Shown here: one piece after another, positions 6,957 through 49,523 of the stretch
How the letters are laid out: each line of letters starts with the position of its first letter
Position numbering within the stretch: position 1 is the first letter of the stretch
From: Elusimicrobiota bacterium
Lineage (GTDB): Bacteria > Elusimicrobiota > Elusimicrobia > UBA1565 > UBA9628
NCBI GenBank assembly: GCA_023249675.1
Contig: JAHFCE010000004.1
Location: 124,675 to 188,674, forward strand
Length of the DNA stretch: 64,000 bases
Direction of reading: 5' to 3'
The notes under the pieces: model-generated
Databases searched by the model: none
What the model saw: only the letters and a program-made list of their open reading frames with translations
Told to the model about the DNA's origin: nothing
Translations under genes and position numbers: made by a program

Positions 6957-6962
6957 TAGACT
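6957..6962 (+). promoter_or_regulatory. -10 box of the PLD-like gene (leaderless type)
   Basis: TAGACT, then 6 bases, then ATG 6969, with no Shine-Dalgarno sequence. Confidence 0.45.
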
Positions 6963-6968
6963 TGGGGC

Positions 6969-8336
6969 ATGGTGAACGCGCCGAATCGATTCGCGATACT
7001 CGCCGTCGCCGTGTCGTTGGCGTCGCCGTCTTCGGCCCAGATGCGGGTCTCGGGAACCGTCGCTCCTGTGCCCGGCCTTGCCGCCCCGCTGATTCCGTTT
7101 TCTTCTTTTGCCGCGCCGGTTCTTCTGCCCGCGCTTCCCGTCGGCGTCGAGGCGGGCCGCGCCTATTTCGATGGAGCCCTCGCCAAGCCCGAGATTCGCC
7201 CGGCGGCGGCCGCTTCGGCGCGCGCTCCGCGCGGCGAGACCGTCGCGTTCAACGGTATCGTCCTTCCCGCCCGGATGTTTTCCGATCAGACGAAGATCTC
7301 GGAGCACTTGGTCCGCGCGATCGACGCCTCGCGGACCTCGATTGACATCGCGATTCACGGCCTCGCCCTGCGCGAGGTCGCGGCCGCCCTCGTGCGCGCG
7401 AAGAAGCGCGACGTGACGGTCCGCATCGTGATGAATCAGACCCACGTGTTTCCGGAAAAGCCCCGCGACACGCGCAGCCCCGAGGTGCAGCTGTTGATGG
7501 ACCAGGGTTTTGAGATGAAGATGCTGCGCGGCGGCGACATGTTCGGCGTCATGCACAACAAGATCGCAATTTTCGACAGCCAGGCTTTGGAGATGGGTTC
7601 GTACAATTGGAGCCACGCCGCCGACACCTGGCACTGGGAAAACGCGATGTTCCACGCCGAGCAGGCGCGCATCCAGGCGTACCAGGCGTATTGGGACTGG
7701 ATGTGGTCGGTCTCATCGGAGATCCCGGCCTCGGCTCCCCCGCGTCCGACGCCGATTCCCGAGGGCCAGCCGCACCCCAATCTGCCGCCCGCGCCGCAGG
7801 ACGGCGCTCGTCCGATCCAATTCAACGGCGAGGCGTTTCCGGCTCAGGCTTTCTCGCCGGGCGGCGTGACCGCGCACCTCGTGCGCGCGATCAACGTCTC
7901 GCGGGTCTCGATCGACTTGGCTAATTTCTCGTTCACCTCCGAGGTCTTGCGCGATGCTCTCCTGCGGGCGAAGGGGCGCGGCGTTGCGATCCGCATCGTC
8001 TTCGATAACGGCCAGTACAAATTTCTTCCCGAAATGCACTGGTTCGCGGAGAACGGCTTCGACGTCCTGCTTTCCCGCGGCAAGAGCGGAGAGAAGGGCG
8101 TCATGCACGAAAAGTTCGCGGTATTCGACGGCGCTTTGGTCGAAGCGGGTTCGTTCAACTGGACGCGCAACGGCGAGAAGAACAATTACGAGAATGCGAT
8201 GTTCCTCGACGCGCCCGATGACGCCGCGGCCTTTGCGGCGCAATTCCAGCGCATCCGCGATCAGGCCCGGGTGCCGGGGGCCGAGGACCATCAGGGCCCG
8301 CACGCCGCGCCCGAAGACATCAACCTCGAGCACTGA
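6969..8336 (+). CDS. Exported phospholipase D-like protein, two HKD motifs
   Basis: 455 residues: signal peptide (cleavage near SSAQ, residue 24), Ala/Pro-rich stretch, box AGRAYFDGAL (residues 62-71), then two homologous PLD domains. HKD motifs HNKIAIFD (His196) and HEKFAVFD (His380) are complete, each followed by a G-S-x-N-W segment. The two halves repeat each other (FNG-x-x-x-PA at both openings, then SIDIA/SIDLA), so the active site should form between them. A Pro-rich linker joins them (about 255-275). The substrate could be phospholipid, nucleic acid or another phosphodiester; PLD-like nucleases are equally possible. Acts outside the cytoplasm if the leader is functional. Confidence 0.9.
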   Translation: MVNAPNRFAILAVAVSLASPSSAQMRVSGTVAPVPGLAAPLIPFSSFAAPVLLPALPVGVEAGRAYFDGALAKPEIRPAAAASARAPRGETVAFNGIVLPARMFSDQTKISEHLVRAIDASRTSIDIAIHGLALREVAAALVRAKKRDVTVRIVMNQTHVFPEKPRDTRSPEVQLLMDQGFEMKMLRGGDMFGVMHNKIAIFDSQALEMGSYNWSHAADTWHWENAMFHAEQARIQAYQAYWDWMWSVSSEIPASAPPRPTPIPEGQPHPNLPPAPQDGARPIQFNGEAFPAQAFSPGGVTAHLVRAINVSRVSIDLANFSFTSEVLRDALLRAKGRGVAIRIVFDNGQYKFLPEMHWFAENGFDVLLSRGKSGEKGVMHEKFAVFDGALVEAGSFNWTRNGEKNNYENAMFLDAPDDAAAFAAQFQRIRDQARVPGAEDHQGPHAAPEDINLEH

Positions 8337-13147: not shown

Positions 13148-15403
13148 TTAGCGGCGCGCGGCCTGGCCCTCTTGAAGCGGCGCCAGATCGGCCGCGATGC
13201 GCAAAGTCTCCTCGAGCACCGCGTCAGGCGCGTCAGGCGAGCGCTCGTAGGCCGCCTCTTCCTCATCGAGGGGGGGAGTGGGAGGCGTTGAAGCGGTCGT
13301 CGAGGAAACGGCGGGCGCCTTGCCATCGAGAATCGCCAAGGTGATGTCCTCGGAGGCGTAGGGCTTCTCTTTTCTCGCGGCGCGCTCCTTCTTGCGGGCG
13401 GCCTGGCGCTCCTCCTCGGTCTTGCTCTCGGCGAGGCGCTTCTTCTCATTGAGCGAGAGGGCCTTGTCCTTCTTTTGCTTTTCCCAACGCGCCATGTCCT
13501 CTTTGATCCACTGGAACTCGCGCGAGGCCGCGACGCGCGCCGCCGAGGCCTTGGCCAAAGACGAGAGGCGCGCCTGCAAGGCCGCGCTGCGGTCGTAGGG
13601 GGCGGCCTCGACCTCGTCGTAGGGCAGGGCGCTCGGCTGCGAGGATTCGGTGGATTCGCTGATGTCCCCGTAGAAGGGGATGTGGATGTCGGGCAGCACG
13701 CCGCGGTGCTGGGTCGAGCCGCCGGAGACGCGGTAGAACTTCTGGATCGTGAGCTTCAGCGCGCCGGGCTTGTAGGAGCGGTAGGCGGGGGGGAGGTATT
13801 GGTTCAGCTCGAGCACGGACTGCACCGTGCCCTTGCCGAACGTGCTTTTCTCGCCGACAATGACGCCGCGGCCGTAGTCCTGCAGGGCTGCTGCGAAAAT
13901 CTCGGAGGCCGACGCGGAGCCGCGCGCGGTCAGCACGATCATCGGCCCGTCGAACGCCGTCATCGGGTCGCTGTCGCGGAGGAGCTTGATCGTGCCGCGC
14001 GCGTCCTTGATCTGGACGACGGGGCCGGCGTTGATGAACAGGCCGGTCAGCGAAACGGCCTCGGACAGAGAGCCGCCGCCGTCGCGGCGCAGGTCGATGA
14101 TCAGGGAGTCCGCGCCGCGCCGTTTCATCTCCGCGATCAAGCGTTCGGTGTCGTGCGTGGCGCTCTTGCCGTCGGAGCCTCCGCGCATGTCCGCGTAGAA
14201 CGAGGGAAGGTCGAGCACGCCGACGCGCGAGGCCGCGCCGTTCTTGCCGGGCACGGTGAAGATCTTGGCCTTGGCCTCCTGGTCGGTGAGCTTGATCTCG
14301 TCGCGCACGAGCGTGATGACGACGCGCGTCGCGGGATCGATCGCGTCGGCGGGCATCACGCGCATGCGCACGGAGGTGCCCTTCTCGCCGCGGATCATCT
14401 GGACGAGGCGGTCGAGCTTCATGCCGACGACCTCGATGAACGGGCCGTCGCCCTGCGCGACGGCTTCGATCTTGTCGTTGGGCTTGAGGCGCTTGTCCTC
14501 GGCGGCGGGGCCGCCCGGAACGAGCGAGACGATGCGCGCGTAGCCGTCCTCGGAGCGCAGCACGGCGCCGATGCCGACGAGCGAAAGCTTCATGCTGATG
14601 TCGAAGTTCTCCTTCTGGGCGGCGGCGAGGTAGTCGGTGTGCGGGTCGAAGACCCGCGTGAGCGCCGAAACGAAGGTCGAGAACACGTCGATGCCGTCGT
14701 ACTCCTTGTAGCTGCGCAGGATGCGGTCGTAGCGCTGGTCGATCGTCTCCTTGGTCGACAGCTCTTTGGCCGGCGCCTCCGCGGGACCTTCCTTTTTCGC
14801 CGCGATCTTGGGAGGCTCGGCCGCGGCCTTCTCTTTCTTTTCCAGGGCCGCCTTCGCGGCGGCGGCCTTGGCTTCCTCGGACTTGAGCTTGGCCAGGCGC
14901 TCGAGCAGAACTTCGTGCTTGATGCGCAGGCGCCACAGTTCGCGGACCTCGGCCTGGCCGGCGGGCCAGCCCAGTTTGTGCCGGTCGAGGACGACCTGAT
15001 CGTCGGTCGTGAAGGTGAAGGTCGAGGAGGTCAAAGTCTTCACGAGGGCGACGCGCTCCTCGAGACGCGAGATCACGCGGTCGAAGATGTCGTAGGCGGC
15101 CTCGACGTCGCCGTCCTTGATGCGGTCGTCGAGCGTTTTGGCGTACTTGGCCTCAAACTCATCCACGTCGCTCTTCTCAAGAATCATGTGGTTGTAGTCG
15201 TAGGCGTCGAGGTAGTTGCGTAAAAATTCGACCGAGACCGCGTCGTCGATCGGACGCCGGGCGTAATGGGTCTGCTCGAGCAGGCGGCCGACGAGTTCGG
15301 TGACGATGGGGCCGCCGCCGTACTTGTCGATCGCGCAGGCGGGGACCGCGAGGACGAGTGCGAGGGTAACGGCGATAAAGCGGCGAAAGATAAAAAAGTT
15401 CAT
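13148..15403 (-). CDS. S41 family C-terminal processing protease (Prc/Tsp type)
   Basis: 751 residues. Signal peptide (1-24, LAVPACA), long helical N-terminal region typical of Prc (LLEQTHYARRPIDDAVSVEF), a Lys/Glu/Ala-rich insertion (about 175-225), PDZ domain (SLVGIGAVLRSEDGYARIVS), peptidase core with SASASEIFAAALQDYG (probable nucleophile Ser498) and STFGKGTVQ (Lys524), then a long charged C-terminal domain as in E. coli Tsp. A periplasmic protease cutting proteins from their C-terminus. It starts 6 bases after the kinase-like gene stops, so they share an operon. The initial MNFFIFRR is short but a normal signal sequence. Confidence 0.93.
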   Translation of the reverse strand: MNFFIFRRFIAVTLALVLAVPACAIDKYGGGPIVTELVGRLLEQTHYARRPIDDAVSVEFLRNYLDAYDYNHMILEKSDVDEFEAKYAKTLDDRIKDGDVEAAYDIFDRVISRLEERVALVKTLTSSTFTFTTDDQVVLDRHKLGWPAGQAEVRELWRLRIKHEVLLERLAKLKSEEAKAAAAKAALEKKEKAAAEPPKIAAKKEGPAEAPAKELSTKETIDQRYDRILRSYKEYDGIDVFSTFVSALTRVFDPHTDYLAAAQKENFDISMKLSLVGIGAVLRSEDGYARIVSLVPGGPAAEDKRLKPNDKIEAVAQGDGPFIEVVGMKLDRLVQMIRGEKGTSVRMRVMPADAIDPATRVVITLVRDEIKLTDQEAKAKIFTVPGKNGAASRVGVLDLPSFYADMRGGSDGKSATHDTERLIAEMKRRGADSLIIDLRRDGGGSLSEAVSLTGLFINAGPVVQIKDARGTIKLLRDSDPMTAFDGPMIVLTARGSASASEIFAAALQDYGRGVIVGEKSTFGKGTVQSVLELNQYLPPAYRSYKPGALKLTIQKFYRVSGGSTQHRGVLPDIHIPFYGDISESTESSQPSALPYDEVEAAPYDRSAALQARLSSLAKASAARVAASREFQWIKEDMARWEKQKKDKALSLNEKKRLAESKTEEERQAARKKERAARKEKPYASEDITLAILDGKAPAVSSTTASTPPTPPLDEEEAAYERSPDAPDAVLEETLRIAADLAPLQEGQAARR

Positions 15404-15409
15404 GTCGGG

Positions 15410-17320
15410 TTATCTTGGAGCGGCGCGCCGGTCCGCGAATTGGTTCACGAAGTCTGCGTCATTTTGTAGCGCCCAGTCCAGGTCGGCGGCGTTGAGGTCG
15501 CAGCGGGCGAGGATCGCCACGGCCTCGGCCGACGTGAAGCCGGAGACGGCGAGGTCGCTTAAGATCGCGGCCCGCGTCTCGGGTTTGGCGAGAAGGGCGC
15601 GCCACGCGCGCACGCCGGTCTGGTAGTCCTCGACGCGGTTGTGCGAAAAGCGGCTCATCCAGGGCATCTCGTACGTGATTCTTTCATCGGGGAAGCGGCC
15701 GGCGACGGGCCGGGAGCGGCCGAAGGCGTACTCGAAGTCGATGAGCCAGGGCAGGTCTTTGCCGCCCGCGGTGAATACGTTGCCGAGGTTCAAATCGGAG
15801 ATGCCGAACGTGTGGGCGAACAGAGCCATGGCCACGCGCTGCTCCCCATTGAACACGTCCTTATAGTAGGCTGGGGAACCGCGGACCTGCTCCATGACCA
15901 GATACGAGTCGTAGCCCCGCTTGACCGCGAGCGAGGCGGGCACGCGCACGTAGCGGCCGAAAAAGCGGCGTGCAAGGCGGCGCAGGGCGACCTCGTTGCG
16001 GATGATTTCCCATTTCGCGATCTTGACGACGAAGGGCGTTTTTCCCGACTCCTCGACGGCAAGGACAACCGTGTTCAGCTTGCCGGGGTCGTCGCCGTGA
16101 AGCTTGATCCGTGTTTTCGCCGACAACGGGTCGTAGCCGAGGCGCTTGGCCGCCTCGCCGGCGCTGACGATCGTGTCGTCGAGGCCGGCGGGGCCTTTCG
16201 GCGCCGGTCCGAAGACGAGGACCGGGCCCGCGGGCGCGGCGGCGTCGCGCCGCGCGAGCGCTTCCAGGGCGGGCGCTCCGGTTTTAGAGCCGCGCAGATC
16301 TTCGAGCGTCTTGGCCCACGGCGCGGAATCCGGGCCGAGGCGCGCGCGCAGTCCCGACAGGAATTCGACCGGGTCCACGCCCGCGAGGACCAGGAGATCG
16401 GGGTCCATCATCTGCTCGAGCACCGCGCGCGGTTTGCCGTCCGCCAGGCCGCTGCCGTCGACGATGACCCAGCGCCCCTCCCAGTGCTGCCACACGAGGT
16501 TGCCGCGAGCGAGGTCGGCGGTGACGCCGGCCTGGATGAGCTTGGCGGCCAACTCCGGCCAGCCTTCCGTCAGGAGGCGCGTGAACGCGCCGCGCTCGAG
16601 CAGGGCTTGAGCCGTTTCGCCCTTGATGAATTCCTTGACGAGTACTTGGCCGTCGCGGCTTTCGGCGAGGAGCTTGGCCACAGGCAGATTGGACTTGCCG
16701 ATCGCGCGCAGCGTCGCGGCTTCCTTGCGGACGCCGGAGAGATCGCGCGTGTCGGGATGCAGGATTTTAATTGCGTAGTTCTCATCGCGGGACTGCCACA
16801 CCGTCGACGTCCCGCCGCGGCCGACCACCTTGTCGAGCACCGTCTTGACCCGGCCGACGCGCACGACGTCCCCGGCCTTTCCCGGCCAGGCCGGGGCTGC
16901 CTCGCCGAGCGAGAGTAGGCCGCGGACCTTGCTCCACAGGCCGCCGGACGCGACGGCAGGCTCGGCGGCGCGCGCGCCGCTTTGGTCAAATAGGATGCGG
17001 CCCGCATCGACGTCGGCCTCAGGGAGCTCTTCCCGACGGGGGGCGGACGCGTCCATGGTCGCGGCGGCGGCGGGCTTTGCCGTCAGCGGCTGGACGAGGT
17101 TTGGGACCGGGGCCGCGACAGGCGTCGGATTCGCGGCGCTGACGCCCGTCAACGACGGCACGGTCAACTGAATCGGGATCGGAGCGCCGAGGGACGCGCC
17201 GACCGCGCCCGACTGTTTGCCGGGCGTGAGCTCTCCGGACGCAGGGAGGTCGATCTGGCCGGCCTGAAGGGGGCCGGCCAGGGCGAGCAGCAGAAAGGCC
17301 CGGACGGTGAGGGGTCTCAC
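15410..17320 (-). CDS. Exported protein with two tandem kinase-like domains
   Basis: 636 residues, GTG start. Signal peptide (1-20, PLQAGQ), Pro/Ala/Val-rich stretch, box AGRILFDQSG (FDQ at 111-113). First kinase-like domain about 155-350: Gly loop VGRGGTSTVW (166-175), Lys185 in AIKIL, catalytic loop DLARGN (Asp269, Asn274), DGS (Asp288). Second about 385-600: Lys433 in VVKIAK, Glu443, catalytic loop SDLNLGN (Asp509, Asn514), IDFEYA (Asp528). Both keep the ATP and metal residues, so both may be active. The second resembles lipid or small-molecule kinases more than Ser/Thr kinases. Being exported is odd for an ATP-using enzyme. Operon with the S41 protease. Confidence 0.75.
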   Translation of the reverse strand: MRPLTVRAFLLLALAGPLQAGQIDLPASGELTPGKQSGAVGASLGAPIPIQLTVPSLTGVSAANPTPVAAPVPNLVQPLTAKPAAAATMDASAPRREELPEADVDAGRILFDQSGARAAEPAVASGGLWSKVRGLLSLGEAAPAWPGKAGDVVRVGRVKTVLDKVVGRGGTSTVWQSRDENYAIKILHPDTRDLSGVRKEAATLRAIGKSNLPVAKLLAESRDGQVLVKEFIKGETAQALLERGAFTRLLTEGWPELAAKLIQAGVTADLARGNLVWQHWEGRWVIVDGSGLADGKPRAVLEQMMDPDLLVLAGVDPVEFLSGLRARLGPDSAPWAKTLEDLRGSKTGAPALEALARRDAAAPAGPVLVFGPAPKGPAGLDDTIVSAGEAAKRLGYDPLSAKTRIKLHGDDPGKLNTVVLAVEESGKTPFVVKIAKWEIIRNEVALRRLARRFFGRYVRVPASLAVKRGYDSYLVMEQVRGSPAYYKDVFNGEQRVAMALFAHTFGISDLNLGNVFTAGGKDLPWLIDFEYAFGRSRPVAGRFPDERITYEMPWMSRFSHNRVEDYQTGVRAWRALLAKPETRAAILSDLAVSGFTSAEAVAILARCDLNAADLDWALQNDADFVNQFADRRAAPR

Positions 17321-19156: not shown

Positions 19157-19292
19157 GAGTCATATTAGCAAATGGGCCCATCGTGGATTGGGTCCAAAGA
19201 CTACGATGAGCTTGCCCGGAGGACTGAGAGCGGTCCGAGGGCGATTAACTACCATGGCCTTCAGGATCGTGCTGAAAAATCGGAGGAATACC

Positions 19293-22196
19293 ATGGTGTT
19301 CAAGAAGTCCCTTGCTTCGGTCGTGTCGGCCGCCCTTCTCATGGTTGGCCCCGGACCTCTCGCGGCGCAGATGATGACGCGCGGCCCCGTCGCGGTTTCC
19401 GTGACCCCGACCATTGGGGCTGGTCTCAACAGCCCCGTTCCGGGCGCTTCCTCAAATATCCCGACCTTGGCCCCTGTCGGTGCCTTGACGGGGTCGATCG
19501 TACCGGCCGCTCCGGTCCCCGTCGCCGCCGTCCAGCTCCGGGCCCTGGCCGCATCGGATTCAGGCTCGCCTCTTGCCGTGATCCAGTCCCAAGATCCCGC
19601 GGTGGGCGTCGACAAGAAGGGCGCTGCGCTCGCGGTTCTGTTCGATCAGGCACCGGTCACCGGCTCCGAGAGCATCGCGGCGCTCGGCCAGTCCGACGGC
19701 GAGAAAATCGCGCAGGAGTTTGAGCAAGCGGTGACGAAAATAGCCGTGTATTACGAAAAGGAGGGTGTCAATCAGGAGCTTCTCTCAAAGCAAGAACTCC
19801 AGGACTTGACGTCTCAATTGAACTACGTCAGCGGCCTGCCCGACAGCCAGATCCCCGCGAAGTCCCTGGGCTATCTCGAGGGTGTCAGCATCGCCATCAT
19901 CAAGTTTCTCAAGGTAAGGAGGAATCGCAGCGAAAATGGCGTCAAAGCCGCTGGAGAGGCCGCTGAGAGGCTGCGCGCGAAAGTGGTCGCCATACCGAAT
20001 CCGACTGCCGCCAAGGCGGGCCCGACCGTCGCGGTCTCGGCGGAGGTCCAGTGGCTTAAGAAATTCAGCGACGAAAACAGAGACAAGATCCTGGGTATCA
20101 AAGGAGTCAATAGCGTTTGGGTCCGAGAGACCGCCTTGGTCGTCTACCTGAATGGTTCCGTGCCGCTGGCCAAAGTGAAGCGAGCGTTGCTGAGAAAATT
20201 CCCTGCGCTCAAAGATCACCTCGTCCAATATGAGGTGATAGGCTGGGCTTCGTTTGGGGGCGACCAGGGGTTGGCGCCGGTCGGGGCCATCCAGCCCCAG
20301 GCCCTCGCCGCAGCGGCTGACGGTCTCTCATCGGCCCAGAAGAGCCTCAGGAAATTCGAAAAAGAAAACAGCGCCAAGATTTTGAGCGTCGAAGGAGTCA
20401 ACAGCGTCGGCATTGGGTTCAGCGAAGATGGCTCCGAGAGTCTGGTCATTACCTTGGATAAATCCGCGTCGCTCGTCCAAGTGAAGGAAGCCCTGCTCAG
20501 CAAGGTTCCTGAGCTGAAGCTGTATCCGGTCAGCTACGAAGTGAGGTCGTGGAGACCCGCAGCCATCGAGAAATTCAAAAGAGAAAACAGCGCCAAGATC
20601 CTGAGTGTGAAAGGAGTCGGTAGTGTTGGAACCGGTGACGGCAAGGCCGTGGTCGTCTATTTGGATGGCTCCGTACCGCTGGCCAAGGTGAAGCAAGCAT
20701 TGCTCAGGAAAATCCCTGCGCTCAAGGATTATCCAGTCAAGTATAAGGTGATAGGTCCTGTTGTGCTTCAGGCCTCCGCGCAGTCTTCGCCGGTCGGGGC
20801 CTTGCCTCCCCATGTCGTCAAGGGTCGGGAGCAGGATCTGAAGTCCTACTTGGCCCTCCTGGGAGTCGATAGTGTTCAGGTGCGTCTGTATGCCGATGCC
20901 CCAAACGGTTTGGCCGGCGGCCCCAACGTTGTTTCCATTGAGTTGCCGGCTTCTCTCAAAATACTTTCGCTGAGTCAACAGTATGAGGAGATTGGCAAGG
21001 TCTTCCAGCTTTTGCAGACGAGCTTGCCGCAGTGGCCATGGCTGGCGGGCAAGATATTTGAAGTCGGCATCCAAACGAGGCACACTTACCGCAACGCCAT
21101 TCCCTTTCCCGGCCGACCGCTCTCCGCGAAAGCCGCCCAGGCGGTTTTGACCCAGCTGGGAAAGGCGCTCATTGCGGCCTACTCAGAGCCCGTGGCTGGA
21201 TTGTCTCCCGAGGCCCGCACGGTCGAACAACGCCCGGCTGGTTCCGAGGACGTCCTGCAATTCATCAGAAAAGGCGGCTGGGTGCTTTATGAGCGCGAGC
21301 ATACGCCGGGGCGCATTTCCGCCCAAGACTATTACCTCGTTTGGTCTGGGCGGGTTGGCCCGGCGGGATCTCGCGTGCAAGCGGTCGCCACGTCGAACCC
21401 GACTGCTCCCGCCGTCAGCGCGGCGACCAAGGCGAATGTCCACCCCCAGGTGCTTGAGGAGATTAGGCGCCATGAGCCGCGCATGGAAACCGCTCTGACG
21501 TTGTGGGGAGAGAACGGGAAGGACTTGGACCAGCCGGAAGTCTTCGCGCGCAGGGCGGAAGCCGTCCTGGCCCGTGTGGGCAAGATCGTCGGCGAGACAC
21601 CGCAGGCACATAATGTCTTCCGTCGTATGCAGAGCTTGGTGGTGGCTGCCAGTTGGCGCTACGTGGAAGAACTCCTCAAACAGCCTGAGGTGCGCAGCGC
21701 CTTGCCGAATCATCCCAACGACGTGACCAACGAGGACGTTCAAATCAAGAGCTTCAACGAAAGGTATGCTCAACTCGTGGCCATTCTCAAGATGGCCGGA
21801 TCAGTGGGCGATGCGAGTATCAGCATATCAGGTACCGATGCCGACGCACTTAAGGATTCTTGGATTATCAATTTTTTGCTACCAGCCCCGAAGGGATTGA
21901 TGACTTACATGTTGTCTTCCCCTGAGTCGACCCGGGGGCGCTCCCAAGTGTATTACGATGAAATAAAAAAATCGTATCTCTATCGCGAATCGGATATAGC
22001 AGGTTGGACAAATCTTTATGTTCAACTCAGCAATGATGGTCAACAAGTTGTGGGGTTGAAATTGGATAAGACTTTGCCTGACAGAAATGGAGTTTACACA
22101 GGCGAGGTTTATAACACAGGCCTCGTTGTGGGAACTGTCCGCGGCAAGGTGATCATTACGGACAAAAGCGGCCGGCCCATCGGCGCGCAGGGATAA
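19293..22196 (+). CDS. Large exported protein: shared leader cassette plus ferredoxin-like repeats
   Basis: 967 residues; ATG 19293 with GGAGG 7 bases upstream. Signal peptide (1-26, LAAQ), Ala/Pro/Val-rich leader and box AALAVLFDQ (117-119), nearly identical to the next gene. A helical stretch follows, then three clear repeats of about 65-75 residues, each beginning with NSAKILSV-x-GVNSVG or a close variant and containing SVPLAKVKQALLRKIPALK, with a fourth divergent copy near residue 520. The alternating strand-helix-strand pattern suggests small ferredoxin-like units. The remaining 400 residues match no family I know. Probably periplasmic or surface located. Confidence 0.8.
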   Translation: MVFKKSLASVVSAALLMVGPGPLAAQMMTRGPVAVSVTPTIGAGLNSPVPGASSNIPTLAPVGALTGSIVPAAPVPVAAVQLRALAASDSGSPLAVIQSQDPAVGVDKKGAALAVLFDQAPVTGSESIAALGQSDGEKIAQEFEQAVTKIAVYYEKEGVNQELLSKQELQDLTSQLNYVSGLPDSQIPAKSLGYLEGVSIAIIKFLKVRRNRSENGVKAAGEAAERLRAKVVAIPNPTAAKAGPTVAVSAEVQWLKKFSDENRDKILGIKGVNSVWVRETALVVYLNGSVPLAKVKRALLRKFPALKDHLVQYEVIGWASFGGDQGLAPVGAIQPQALAAAADGLSSAQKSLRKFEKENSAKILSVEGVNSVGIGFSEDGSESLVITLDKSASLVQVKEALLSKVPELKLYPVSYEVRSWRPAAIEKFKRENSAKILSVKGVGSVGTGDGKAVVVYLDGSVPLAKVKQALLRKIPALKDYPVKYKVIGPVVLQASAQSSPVGALPPHVVKGREQDLKSYLALLGVDSVQVRLYADAPNGLAGGPNVVSIELPASLKILSLSQQYEEIGKVFQLLQTSLPQWPWLAGKIFEVGIQTRHTYRNAIPFPGRPLSAKAAQAVLTQLGKALIAAYSEPVAGLSPEARTVEQRPAGSEDVLQFIRKGGWVLYEREHTPGRISAQDYYLVWSGRVGPAGSRVQAVATSNPTAPAVSAATKANVHPQVLEEIRRHEPRMETALTLWGENGKDLDQPEVFARRAEAVLARVGKIVGETPQAHNVFRRMQSLVVAASWRYVEELLKQPEVRSALPNHPNDVTNEDVQIKSFNERYAQLVAILKMAGSVGDASISISGTDADALKDSWIINFLLPAPKGLMTYMLSSPESTRGRSQVYYDEIKKSYLYRESDIAGWTNLYVQLSNDGQQVVGLKLDKTLPDRNGVYTGEVYNTGLVVGTVRGKVIITDKSGRPIGAQG

Positions 22197-22229
22197 CTGC
22201 CCGCACTTAAAACTCGGAGGAATATAGTC

Positions 22230-22997
22230 ATGTTCAGACAGTCTCTTGCTTCGGTCGTGTCGGCCGCTCTTCTCATGGTCGGCCCCGGACCGCTCTCCGC
22301 GCAGATGATGAGCCGTGGCCCCGTCGCGGTTTCCGTGACCCCGACCATTGGGGCTGGTCTCAACAGCCCCGTTCCGGGCGCTTCCTCGAATATCCCGACC
22401 TTGGCCCCTGTCGGCGCCTTGACCGCGTCGATCGTACCGGCCGCTCCAGTCCCTGTCGCCGCCGTTCAGCCCCAGGCCCTTGCACCTGTGACGGCTCAGG
22501 GCTCGCCCCTGGCCGTGATCCGGTCTCAAGACCCCGCGGTCGGCGTCGACAAGAAGGGCGCCGCGCTTGACGTGCTGTTCGATCAGTCCGCCGCCGCCGT
22601 GGATGGCACGGCCGCGGGACCCATCCTGGGACAACCCGAGCCCGCCAAGCCGTCCGCTCCCAACGCGGCCGGCATCGTGCTCGGTCTGACGGCGGCCGCC
22701 AGGGCCCTGGAGAGCAGGACCTCGGGCTACGGCAATGTTGATTTCTGGGTCCATCACCACGCCATGCGCCGAGACATAGGCAACGCGGTCGCTGACTCGC
22801 TGACGGCGATTTCCAGGGCCACGGACGACCGCTTGCTCGCGTTCGAGCTCCAGCGGCTGGCCGAGGACTTGCGCGCGGCGCCTCAGAAGGGTTACGGCAA
22901 CGTCGACTATTGGACCGATCTTTGCTCTCGCCAGGATACGGCGTTTGCGCGCATTGCCTCGCGTTTGCGCCAACTGAACGACTTGCCGCGGCCGTAA
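22230..22997 (+). CDS. Exported protein: duplicated leader cassette with a new C-terminal domain
   Basis: 255 residues, ATG preceded by GGAGG. Residues 1-119 (signal peptide to box ALDVLFDQ) are almost the same as in the preceding gene, including a 71-base run of perfect DNA identity. After the box the two proteins are unrelated. The C-terminal part has two related segments, SGYGNVDFWVHHHAMRRD and KGYGNVDYWTDLCSRQD, each followed by a helix, so it is an internal duplication with no known family. It lies 33 bases after its neighbour and is probably co-transcribed. Function unknown. Confidence 0.8.
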   Translation: MFRQSLASVVSAALLMVGPGPLSAQMMSRGPVAVSVTPTIGAGLNSPVPGASSNIPTLAPVGALTASIVPAAPVPVAAVQPQALAPVTAQGSPLAVIRSQDPAVGVDKKGAALDVLFDQSAAAVDGTAAGPILGQPEPAKPSAPNAAGIVLGLTAAARALESRTSGYGNVDFWVHHHAMRRDIGNAVADSLTAISRATDDRLLAFELQRLAEDLRAAPQKGYGNVDYWTDLCSRQDTAFARIASRLRQLNDLPRP

Positions 22998-46140: not shown

Positions 46141-47862
46141 GTGCGCGCGCTTGCTCTCGCCGGTCTCATCGTCCTGTCGGCCTGCGGCACGGCGCCGCGT
46201 AAAGCTCCCGCGACTTTGGCGGAAGCTCGCGCCGCCCTGCAGTCCGACGACGCCGCGGCGCGCGCGAGGGCCGCGTGGGACTTGGGCCAGATCGGCCTGG
46301 CCGAGAGGGACGAGGGCGCGCCCGAGCCGGCCACCGCGATTTCACTGCGCGGGGCCGCGGTCGCGGCCTTGATTCCCAGTGTCTTGGACCCCGAGGCCCC
46401 GGTGCGGCGCGCCGTTGTCGGTGCGCTGGGCAAGGTCGGCGGCCCCGAGGTCGAGGACGCGCTGCTGTCCGCGGGCACCGACGTAGACGCAGGCGTGCGC
46501 GGAGAAATCGCCTTGGCGTTGTTTCGGCGCCGGTTTCTCAAGCGCGTGCCCGAGTACTCGACCGCGAGCGTGAATAAACTTTTGACGCTGGCCGCTGATC
46601 CCGATCCCGAAGTCCGTTGGCGCGCGGTGTATGCCTTCACGCGTTTCCCCGATGTCCGGGCGGAGAAGATGTTGGCGGCCGCGGAGAGGGACGCCGACGC
46701 GGCCACCCGCCTTTTTGCCGTTCGATCCCTTGCAAAGCTTGGCCGTTCCGCGGATCCGGCTGTGCTTTCGGACCCCGATCTCTACGTCCGCGCCGAGGCC
46801 GTCGCTTCGTTCGGCGCCGCCAAGGCCGCCGCGGATCTGCCCATTTCTATTTTTTCCGATCCGTCCGCTCATGTCCGCGCCGCCGCGGCCGACGCCGTCG
46901 CCGCGACGGGCGCATCCAGGCTCGCGGACCGTCTCGAAAAAATGGCGGATGGAGATAGCCCAATGCCGCGCGGCCGCGCCTTGCTCGCGCTGGCCAAGCT
47001 TCGCGGCGGCGCCGAAGCCGCGCGTCTTGCGCGCGCGCGCCGGAACCCGCATTGGTGGATTCGCTCCAAGGCCTACGAAGCGAGCGCCGCTTTGCCGGAC
47101 GCCGCCGCGATCCTCAACGCGGGCGTCGCGGATGCGGACGCGCGGGTCGCCGCGCAGGCGCTTGACAGTTTGGCCGCCTCGACTTCACCGCTTGCCGCCG
47201 CCGCGATCGAGAGAGTCCTGCGCGATCCGCAGTCTCAACTGGAGCTTCTGGGCACGGCCGTCGACGCCGCGGGCGAGCGCAAGTCTGCGGCGTTCGCCGC
47301 GGCCCTGCGCATGGCGCGGCGGCGCGGGGATCTCACCGCGGAAATTCGCGACGCGCTGCGCCAGGCGCTCAAGGCTTCCGGCGTCAAGGTTTCGGCCGGG
47401 TCCGCGCTCGACGCGCCGAAGACGTTCGCGCCGCTGTCCGCGCCGCAAACCTTAATTCTGGACACCGAAAAAGGCACGGTCGAGCTTCTGCTCGATGCCG
47501 CGGCCGCGCCCAACACCGCCGCCGCGATCGCGGCGATGGCGCGCCGGGGCGTCTACGATGGGACGATCTGGCATCGCGTCGTGACCGCCTTCGTCGTGCA
47601 GGGCGGCGATCCGCGCGGGTCGGGTTGGGGCGACGCCGGCTTTCGGCTCGCGGACGAGGTCAACCCGGCGCCTTTCCTGCGCGGAACGCTCGGCATGCCC
47701 AAGGCCGGGCCGGACACGGGCGGCTGCCAGTTGTTCGTGAGCCTCGTGCCCGCGCCGCATCTCGACGGCCGCTACACCGCCTTCGGCCATGTGGTCTCGG
47801 GCATGGACGTCCTCGACGTCCTCGAGCCGGGCGACAAGATACTAAGAGCGCGTCTTCGCTAA
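46141..47862 (+). CDS. HEAT-repeat lipoprotein with C-terminal cyclophilin-type prolyl isomerase
   Basis: 573 residues from GTG 46141, fixed by TATAAT 6 bases upstream. Lipobox LSAC at about residue 14. Residues about 20-430 are HEAT repeats (AAWDLGQIGLAE, VRRAVVGALGKVG, VRWRAVYAFTRFP and more). The last 140 residues are a cyclophilin domain: LILDTEKGTVELLLD, NTAAAIAAMARRGVYDGTIWHRV, FVVQGGDPRGSGWG, GTLGMPKAGPDTGGCQLFVS, DGRYTAFGHVVSGMDVLD. It probably assists folding at a membrane surface, with the HEAT part as docking surface. Ends in a convergent overlap of 21 bases. Confidence 0.9.
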   Translation: MRALALAGLIVLSACGTAPRKAPATLAEARAALQSDDAAARARAAWDLGQIGLAERDEGAPEPATAISLRGAAVAALIPSVLDPEAPVRRAVVGALGKVGGPEVEDALLSAGTDVDAGVRGEIALALFRRRFLKRVPEYSTASVNKLLTLAADPDPEVRWRAVYAFTRFPDVRAEKMLAAAERDADAATRLFAVRSLAKLGRSADPAVLSDPDLYVRAEAVASFGAAKAAADLPISIFSDPSAHVRAAAADAVAATGASRLADRLEKMADGDSPMPRGRALLALAKLRGGAEAARLARARRNPHWWIRSKAYEASAALPDAAAILNAGVADADARVAAQALDSLAASTSPLAAAAIERVLRDPQSQLELLGTAVDAAGERKSAAFAAALRMARRRGDLTAEIRDALRQALKASGVKVSAGSALDAPKTFAPLSAPQTLILDTEKGTVELLLDAAAAPNTAAAIAAMARRGVYDGTIWHRVVTAFVVQGGDPRGSGWGDAGFRLADEVNPAPFLRGTLGMPKAGPDTGGCQLFVSLVPAPHLDGRYTAFGHVVSGMDVLDVLEPGDKILRARLR

Positions 47863-49320
47863 ACCCGACTCGAGCGCGCGTCGGCGCGCCTTTTCGAGAT
47901 ACTGCCGGGCAAGCTCCGGGTCGGAGGAACGAAAACGCCGCGCGAGAAGGCTATATCCCTCGACGCTCAAGGCCGGCATGCGCGCGCGCTGATCGGCGAG
48001 GACCTGGCGGTAGTAGCGGGACTCCGTGTGAGCGAACAGCGCATAGGTGGCGGAGGAATCGTCGACCCTTGATTCGAGGTAGGCGTCCAGGTCGTCTAGG
48101 AAGAGGCTATAGTTGGACAGGTCATACACGGCAGCCAGCGGGTCGGCCCGGAGCTTCTCATGGACATACAGTCGGTCGGCGATGTTGGCTTCGTACTCGA
48201 GCTCCACGGTCAGGTAGCGGTGGAGCTGGCGGGGAAAGCGCTCGAGCTGGCCGGGCTGGATGACTTTGCGGAACTGAAGGGCGTGAAACAGTTCGTGGAA
48301 GAGCAGCTCGTCCGCCTCGCGTGCCAGCTGCCCCCGCTTTTCCGGGGTCGCGAGGAACTCCTTCACGGTCCAGCCGCGGGACGTGATCACGGCAGGATCC
48401 AGGAAAACGCCGTTGAGCACCGGGAAGGAAAAGCCATCCGCATTGTTCAGGCGCGCGATGAAGAATTTCGGCGGCCGCAGGACGCCGAAGCGATCTCTGA
48501 GGCCGTCGAGAAGCTTGCGTCCTTCGCTGTTCTTGGAGAGCACCGCGACGACCTCACGGCCGAAATCGGGATCGACGGCGCGCACCTCGCGGCTCGGGAC
48601 GACGAGGCGCGCTCCCGTCTCGATGATGTCGCGCGAGAACAAGAGAGGGGTGATCCCCAGGACGACGCCCAGGAGCAGGCCGAAGCCCGTCATCGCGGCT
48701 TTTGCGCGACGAGGGCGGTTCTTGGCTGGGCCCGTCGTACGGCGCGCCGCGCGGCGCGCCACGGCGTTGATCGCCCACAGCGCGCCGGCTCCGGCGGCGG
48801 CGGCCGCCGCCGTGTAGACCATCATGAGAGCCGGCGCCGCCTGGAGAACGACCGGCGCGGCGATCGCCGCGGCGGCGCCCGCGGCGACGGCGGTCTTGAA
48901 GCGGACCTTTTCCGTCCGGGCGAGCTGAGAGGGTCGCGGCGTGGAGGGCGGCGCGGATTCGCCGGGGAGAGCCGGGGCGCTTTCCGGTCGCGCGCCGTCG
49001 AAGCGCAGGCGGGCGCCAGGCTCCGGCTTTGCATCGGCGGAGAGCCCCGCGAGGCTTTCGAGGGGCGTCTCGGGCACCCGCCCCGGGTTGGGGATTGCAG
49101 CGGGCGTCGCGGGAATGGGCGTCGGGAGAGCGGCCGGCACGCCCGCGATGGAGGGCGCGGCCGGGAAAACCGCGGGTTCGGCCATGCGTGCCGAGAGCGG
49201 AGCCGGCGCGGAGGGAATGCTTCGGGGCGCCTCCGGCCGCGCGATCGGCGTCGCCGCCCGGGCGACCTCTCCCGAGACGAGCAACAACGAAAGAAGCGCC
49301 GCTGCGGCCTTTCTGATCAT
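47842..49320 (-). CDS. Exported membrane HEXXH metallopeptidase-like protein with leader box
   Basis: 492 residues; TATAGT lies 6 bases before the ATG. Signal peptide (1-22), Pro/Ala-rich stretch, box GARLRFDGAR (FDG at 107-109). Two hydrophobic segments (about 140-190 and 205-225) precede the catalytic part: HELFH at 342-346 in LFHELFHALQFRK and a Glu in VELEYEANIADRL about 25 residues later, the zinc-peptidase set. The C-terminal 120 residues are helical. Likely a membrane zinc protease; family not identified. Confidence 0.78.
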   Translation of the reverse strand: MIRKAAAALLSLLLVSGEVARAATPIARPEAPRSIPSAPAPLSARMAEPAVFPAAPSIAGVPAALPTPIPATPAAIPNPGRVPETPLESLAGLSADAKPEPGARLRFDGARPESAPALPGESAPPSTPRPSQLARTEKVRFKTAVAAGAAAAIAAPVVLQAAPALMMVYTAAAAAAGAGALWAINAVARRAARRTTGPAKNRPRRAKAAMTGFGLLLGVVLGITPLLFSRDIIETGARLVVPSREVRAVDPDFGREVVAVLSKNSEGRKLLDGLRDRFGVLRPPKFFIARLNNADGFSFPVLNGVFLDPAVITSRGWTVKEFLATPEKRGQLAREADELLFHELFHALQFRKVIQPGQLERFPRQLHRYLTVELEYEANIADRLYVHEKLRADPLAAVYDLSNYSLFLDDLDAYLESRVDDSSATYALFAHTESRYYRQVLADQRARMPALSVEGYSLLARRFRSSDPELARQYLEKARRRALESGLAKTRS

Positions 49321-49326
49321 TCCCTG

Positions 49327-49332
49327 ACTATA
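49327..49332 (-). promoter_or_regulatory. -10 box of the 47842-49320 gene (leaderless type)
   Basis: TATAGT on the minus strand, exactly 6 bases before ATG 49320; no Shine-Dalgarno sequence. Confidence 0.5.
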
Positions 49333-49523
49333 ACGGGCAGAGAGCGCGATTCTCAGGACCGAATGGCGCTAGGGGGAGTCGCAAGAGTCCTAGGAAAAAT
49401 GAGGCCTTTCGACCCAGTGTTTTCAGCGTTGGAAGTATTGGGGATAATTCCCGGCGCCACGATGAAGCGTGAGGGGAGCCATCCGACGTCGGCCCGGGAT
49501 AGTTGTTTGCTACATTCTCCGCC

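Follow-up and report, generated by a model that had tools for sequence, protein, structure and literature searches.

The two neighbouring genes described here raise the question of how proteins that are unrelated over most of their length have come to share a nearly identical N-terminal leader, and what such a leader may do. Both genes lie within a 64,000-nt stretch of DNA (the window; G000:C33:124675-188674) belonging to a 2.6-Mb Elusimicrobiota MAG of 54 contigs, and they are located on the same strand, 33 bases apart. The features of this gene pair, given in window coordinates, are as follows.

19272-19292, plus strand: shared upstream stretch with the Shine-Dalgarno site (CGGAGGAATA) of gene 1; the duplicated unit starts here
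19293-22196, plus strand: gene 1, 967 codons, open reading frame confirmed
19293-19649, plus strand: leader of gene 1, with a signal-peptide-like start, a low-complexity P/A/V linker and the block GSPLAVIQSQDPAVGVDKKGAALAVLFDQ
19383-19453, plus strand: 71-base exact match to 22317-22387, within a low-dS tract (codons 29-54)
19641-19649, plus strand: FDQ box of gene 1
19650-22196, plus strand: body of gene 1, about 849 residues, unrelated to gene 2, with three diverged repeats of about 65 residues
19706-20275, plus strand: module common to gene 1 and gene c of contig C25 (81% DNA identity, 579 nt); the leader of C25 gene c belongs to a different branch
22206-22229, plus strand: shared upstream stretch with the Shine-Dalgarno site of gene 2
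22230-22997, plus strand: gene 2, 255 codons, open reading frame confirmed
22230-22586, plus strand: leader of gene 2, 87% identical to that of gene 1
22317-22387, plus strand: 71-base exact match to 19383-19453, in gene 2
22500-22601, plus strand: leader block 2 of gene 2, predicted from a structure model to be a helical hairpin (residues 91-124)
22578-22586, plus strand: FDQ box of gene 2
22587-22997, plus strand: body of gene 2, 136 residues, predicted to be helical, with the motif GYGNVDxW occurring twice

Comparison of the two genes at the nucleotide level revealed a direct repeat of 278 nt (19272-19549 and 22206-22483; 90% identity) and a second repeat block of 100 nt (19563-19662 and 22500-22599; 83% identity). 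The encoded leaders share 87% protein identity over 119 residues, in agreement with an earlier note on this DNA, which had reported a near-identical leader of about this length, and the 71-base run of perfect identity that it described lies exactly where it had been placed. The breakpoints were mapped at the DNA level: the similarity does not start with the ATG but approximately 20 bases 5' of it, at the Shine-Dalgarno site, and effectively ends at LFDQ. The copied unit therefore carried its own ribosome-binding site. The remainders of the two genes, which had also been described as unrelated, showed no homology in unfiltered comparisons at E 0.001, and thus the C-terminal similarity that would have indicated an ordinary gene duplication was looked for and not found between the bodies at this threshold. 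Neither body matched anything in protein family libraries, gene 2 had no matching solved structure, and searches of 19 genomes of the genus with its body gave no credible relative, the matches being at chance level. The three diverged repeats of gene 1 (at about 20050-20250, 20341-20550 and 20560-20760) have the consensus KILSVxGVxSVG...VYLDGSVPLAKVKxALLRKxPALKDYPV, and one repeat of this type recurs in C25 gene c and, as a distant version, in G018c.

The leader is not confined to this pair. Searching the genome for other copies of the cassette retrieved at least five further leader genes and one internal leader fragment; the copies are spread over four contigs and include tandem arrays on the same strand, of two genes in the window and of three (f, d and c) on C25. 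In a profile search, 10 of the 19 genomes of the genus contained the leader and no other genus of the family gave a match at E 0.01, while a wider profile added one more gene in this genome (on C24) and a few marginal matches elsewhere in the order (e.g. in G045, with a similar start and the sequence ...AALDSLFTGS). The relatives with leader matches are Elusimicrobia/Elusimicrobiota MAGs, including GWA2_66_18 and JAD_PAG50586_1. Pairwise comparison of 20 family members revealed homologous leaders in 181 of the 190 pairs and related downstream parts in 40 of 190. According to Pfam, the bodies behind the leader comprise PspA/IM30 proteins with transmembrane modules, WD40 proteins, an animal-type haem peroxidase with a caleosin domain and several orphans (the downstream domains include PspA_IM30, WD40 and An_peroxidase). 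The leader itself matched no Pfam or NCBIfam entry, and searches of the literature turned up no account of a leader of this kind in Elusimicrobiota.

Could this distribution result from ordinary paralogy, i.e. from the duplication of whole genes followed by divergence or deletion that made the C-terminal parts unrecognizable, with a leader that remained conserved and did not need to recombine? Members of the family do occur in tandem, some pairs retain weak similarity past the box, and C25 genes c and d share both the leader and a later ARxDKGxVAGAIP module, hence d may have arisen from a gene resembling c by the loss of an internal part. However, at a leader dS of 0.3 the time elapsed is too short for bodies of 849 and 136 residues to have lost all similarity by substitution, and the histories of leader and module are in strong conflict. 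The module that gene 1 shares with C25 gene c (68% protein identity over 217 residues) is 81% identical at the DNA level, yet the leader of gene 1 is 87% identical to that of gene 2, which does not contain the module. In the maximum-likelihood leader tree, leaders of the same genome pair up (window genes 1 and 2 with support of 100/99, C25 c and d with 93/94, as well as G018 a and b and G007 a and b), and a clade uniting the leaders of gene 1 and C25 gene c was rejected (p-AU 7e-93) despite their common 579-nt module. The contradiction between the leader tree and the module relationship indicates that recombination has uncoupled the leader from the body. Paralogy of this kind is thus unlikely, and an ordinary tandem gene duplication was rejected, as whole-length homology is lacking, the bodies are dissimilar and leader and module disagree. 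Of the earlier proposal that the leader is a mobile or recombining module, the second half holds: the leader recombines independently of the bodies, as seen from the unrelated bodies and the leader/module conflict.

The copy event had also been called recent, which is an overstatement, since the two window leaders differ with a dS of 0.32 (dN 0.066). The resulting dN/dS of about 0.2 shows, on the evidence of the codons, that the leader is under purifying selection. The dS is unevenly distributed, with 0.09 in codons 29-54 and 0.29-0.56 elsewhere, and when the 42 differences were placed randomly with the third-position bias kept, a run of this length arose in 0.17% of trials. Constraint at the DNA level is an unlikely cause of this run, as in other leader pairs the synonymous sites of this part do differ. 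The pattern, although the call of the tract rests on few synonymous sites, suggests a short gene conversion in codons 29-54, and so an older copy followed by later conversion rather than a single recent event; the tandem arrangement of the leader genes favours unequal recombination. Intragenomic gene conversion leaves tandem paralogues closer to each other than to their orthologues, with a short tract of low dS. The window leaders are likewise closest to each other and contain such a tract, but differ from that picture in that only the 5' part has been homogenised and the bodies are unrelated.

The earlier note had further claimed that the similarity stops straight after LFDQ, making the box the boundary of the cassette. 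This describes the window pair in effect, but not strictly, since the similarity fades (6 of the next 18 aligned residues match) and a remnant, LGQ, is found about 20 residues past LFDQ. As a general rule the claim fails: C25 sister genes c and d stay similar for 20-25 residues past the box, most members of the leader family continue beyond it with the pattern LF[DE][NQ]S..xG.E.LE.LGxSAA, and a 59-nt piece of leader block 2 (GSPLSVISSQDPMVGDAEKG) without the box occurs inside a third gene, C25 gene c, directly preceding the module also present in gene 1. The latter fragment and the comparison of c and d rule out the box as a strict recombination end, and together with the family-wide similarity they mark it as a common place near the leader end and not a fixed recombination end. 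These observations also bear on the idea that a dedicated recombinase or element moves the leader as a mobile cassette and recognizes the box DNA as the end of that cassette. This idea would fit the abrupt drop in similarity behind LFDQ in the window pair and the presence of several copies on four contigs. Nevertheless, the breakpoints vary between copies and the box itself is variable (FDQ, FEN, FDN, FDD). Moreover, the neighbouring genes encode a DUF4143 AAA ATPase, a PC4-like protein, a CNNM/CBS protein and uroporphyrinogen decarboxylase (hemE), with no recombinase or transposase families among the immediate neighbours of genes 1 and 2, no flanking repeats, inverted ones included, around the duplicated unit, and no leader copies in plasmid records or IMG/VR viral contigs. 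Mobility in this sense, as put forward in the earlier note, is highly improbable.

Clues to the role of the leader come from its structure. Its start combines a charged beginning, a hydrophobic core and an A-x-A/AQ site (rule-based scan with a simple hydrophobicity rule). In the AlphaFold2 model of gene 2 (17-row alignment, mean pLDDT 65.7) the leader is disordered except for residues 91-124, which form a helical hairpin (pLDDT about 86-92 up to residue 120) with the box within its second helix. Residues A112, L113 and F117 are near-invariant across the leader family, and with the modelled hairpin and the dN/dS value this makes the hairpin look like a small functional element.

The box extends beyond the cassette family. 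Within about 511 kb of this genome, the motif F[DE][GNQ][SAG], located 30-160 residues past the signal peptide, was found in 13 of 47 rule-predicted secreted proteins with a low-complexity leader (0.4 expected by shuffling), 6 of these 13 being members of the cassette family, while seven scrambled or substituted control motifs gave 0-2 proteins each. In untargeted stretches alone, F[DE][GNQ][SAG] occurred in 3 of 22 proteins versus 0.2 expected (p 0.001) and F[DE][GNQ] in 5 of 22 versus 0.5 expected (p 1e-4), these p-values being optimistic because the motif was defined after examples had been viewed. No box was found in low-complexity leaders in 100-kb samples of four other genera of the family. 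Bodies behind the box outside the cassette family include a fused BatA/VWA/TPR/DUF58 protein, endonuclease I, a PLD protein and a fused ABC exporter, and in relatives site-2-protease-like and endonuclease/phosphatase-like box proteins were recognized (motif judgement by eye). Three further box-bearing genes lie in the window:

6960-8336, plus strand: PLD-family protein with a signal-peptide-like start, a P/A leader and an FDGA box
15410-17320, minus strand: signal-peptide-like start, P/A-rich leader, LFDQS box and kinase-like body (motifs by eye, no family match)
47842-49368, minus strand: membrane-type protein with a signal-peptide-like start, a P/A leader and an FDGA box

In the light of these data, the leader is probably an export leader of the Sec type that includes a small docking helix, carried by unrelated envelope proteins and spread by tandem duplication and gene conversion. 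Its parts would be, from the N-terminus onwards, a signal peptide of the Sec type with ...A-A-Q at its end, a disordered linker that is rich in P/A/V and varies in length, and a small helical hairpin that closes with the box (putative consensus LF[DE][QN], more widely F[DE][GNQ][SAG]). A tandem duplication or an unequal recombination event would have copied the leader together with its ribosome-binding site between the neighbouring window genes, and gene conversion may later have partly homogenised the copies. We infer that the signal peptide would export the protein and then be cleaved, that the linker might span part of the envelope, and that the hairpin may dock to an envelope partner, so that the attached domains would be held in the same place.

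Alternatively, the box could be a protease site and the leader a propeptide, with an envelope protease cutting F-[DE]-[NQG]/[SAG] and freeing the body. Its position between the disordered leader and the body in unrelated proteins, at a rather uniform distance from the start (66-187 residues, mostly 100-150), and the small residue directly after it are compatible with cleavage. However, the box lies inside a confidently modelled helix, which is unfavourable for cleavage and makes proteolytic removal at this place less likely, and in many members conservation extends past the box; we regard this explanation as improbable. An export leader as simple as a secretion signal is in turn a poor fit for some box proteins, which are of types normally embedded in the membrane with the N-terminus inside, or are ATP-dependent (the ABC exporter, the kinase-like protein, the Bat/VWA/DUF58 fusion). 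Tentatively, and with considerable doubt, the hairpin and the F[DE][GNQ][SAG] box might constitute an undescribed, lineage-specific sorting or anchoring signal, read by a dedicated envelope partner and gathering dozens of unrelated enzymes and membrane proteins, even normally cytoplasmic or inner-membrane types, at one place, in the manner of PE/PPE domains in type VII secretion.

In the PE/PPE proteins of mycobacteria, secretion depends on a conserved N-terminal domain of about 110-180 residues, which bears a short motif close to its end (YxxxD/E in PE) and is followed by very different C-terminal parts, and enzymes are thought to have become substrates of this type via recombination with pe/ppe genes (PMC7028111). 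The leader described here resembles them in being a constant N-terminal part, with a short motif near its end, ahead of very different C-terminal parts, but it has a predicted Sec-type signal peptide and a disordered linker, no tyrosine, no sequence relationship and no shown type VII system. Membership of PE/PPE was rejected, as the leader lacks the YxxxD/E motif and has a hydrophobic, signal-peptide-like start ending in AAQ. Polymorphic toxin systems also combine a constant N-terminal trafficking region with exchangeable C-terminal modules made by recombination (PMC3482391), a likeness that extends to the leader and its exchangeable downstream modules. The Elusimicrobiota bodies with a family match differ from these systems in not being recognized toxin domains (at the Pfam cutoff the bodies gave no toxin families, only PspA, WD40, peroxidase or, for the orphans, nothing), and no immunity-gene pattern was seen. 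What emerges is a bacterial lineage in which one and the same probable export leader serves many unrelated proteins and shows clear signs of having been swapped and homogenised. Through the box it may become possible to predict which proteins make up the envelope in a phylum that is almost uncultured, and to seek a new sorting signal. Were the leader no more than a signal peptide region in decay, the interest would be modest.

Several box-bearing and leader proteins have unusual architectures. BatA-like, VWA, TPR and DUF58 domains are usually encoded by separate genes; at L115:8564-16915 they form a 2773-residue fusion behind a box-bearing leader. The N-terminus of an ABC exporter is normally cytoplasmic; a 1389-residue fused double ABC exporter (L122:2821-6996) carries a signal-peptide-like leader and an FDG box. 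A tail-specific protease (TSP_NTD, PDZ, S41; window 13148-15403, minus strand) is encoded 6 bases downstream of the box-bearing gene at 15410-17320, on the same strand, and is a possible candidate for an envelope processing partner. Animal-type haem peroxidases are found behind the leader at L077:4390-8400 (with a caleosin-like domain), L189:657-4157 and L190, the assignment of the latter two resting on resemblance to L077, and the box variants in these leader proteins are FWTN, FYAG and FWSN. A short linker (KKDG[AVI]NGG, DDKGxxGG, DKGQAGG) recurs in many leader proteins, where it connects the modules of a string, each module being followed by transmembrane segments or a PspA/IM30-like coil. 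Proteins of this build were identified at:

L009:13694-19000 (continuing at L010:1-494), L009:7127-10435, L063, L064, L065 and L066: linker-string leader proteins

In about 1.1 Mb of sampled sequence this repeated linker was seen only in the leader family, where it could serve as punctuation or as a processing site.
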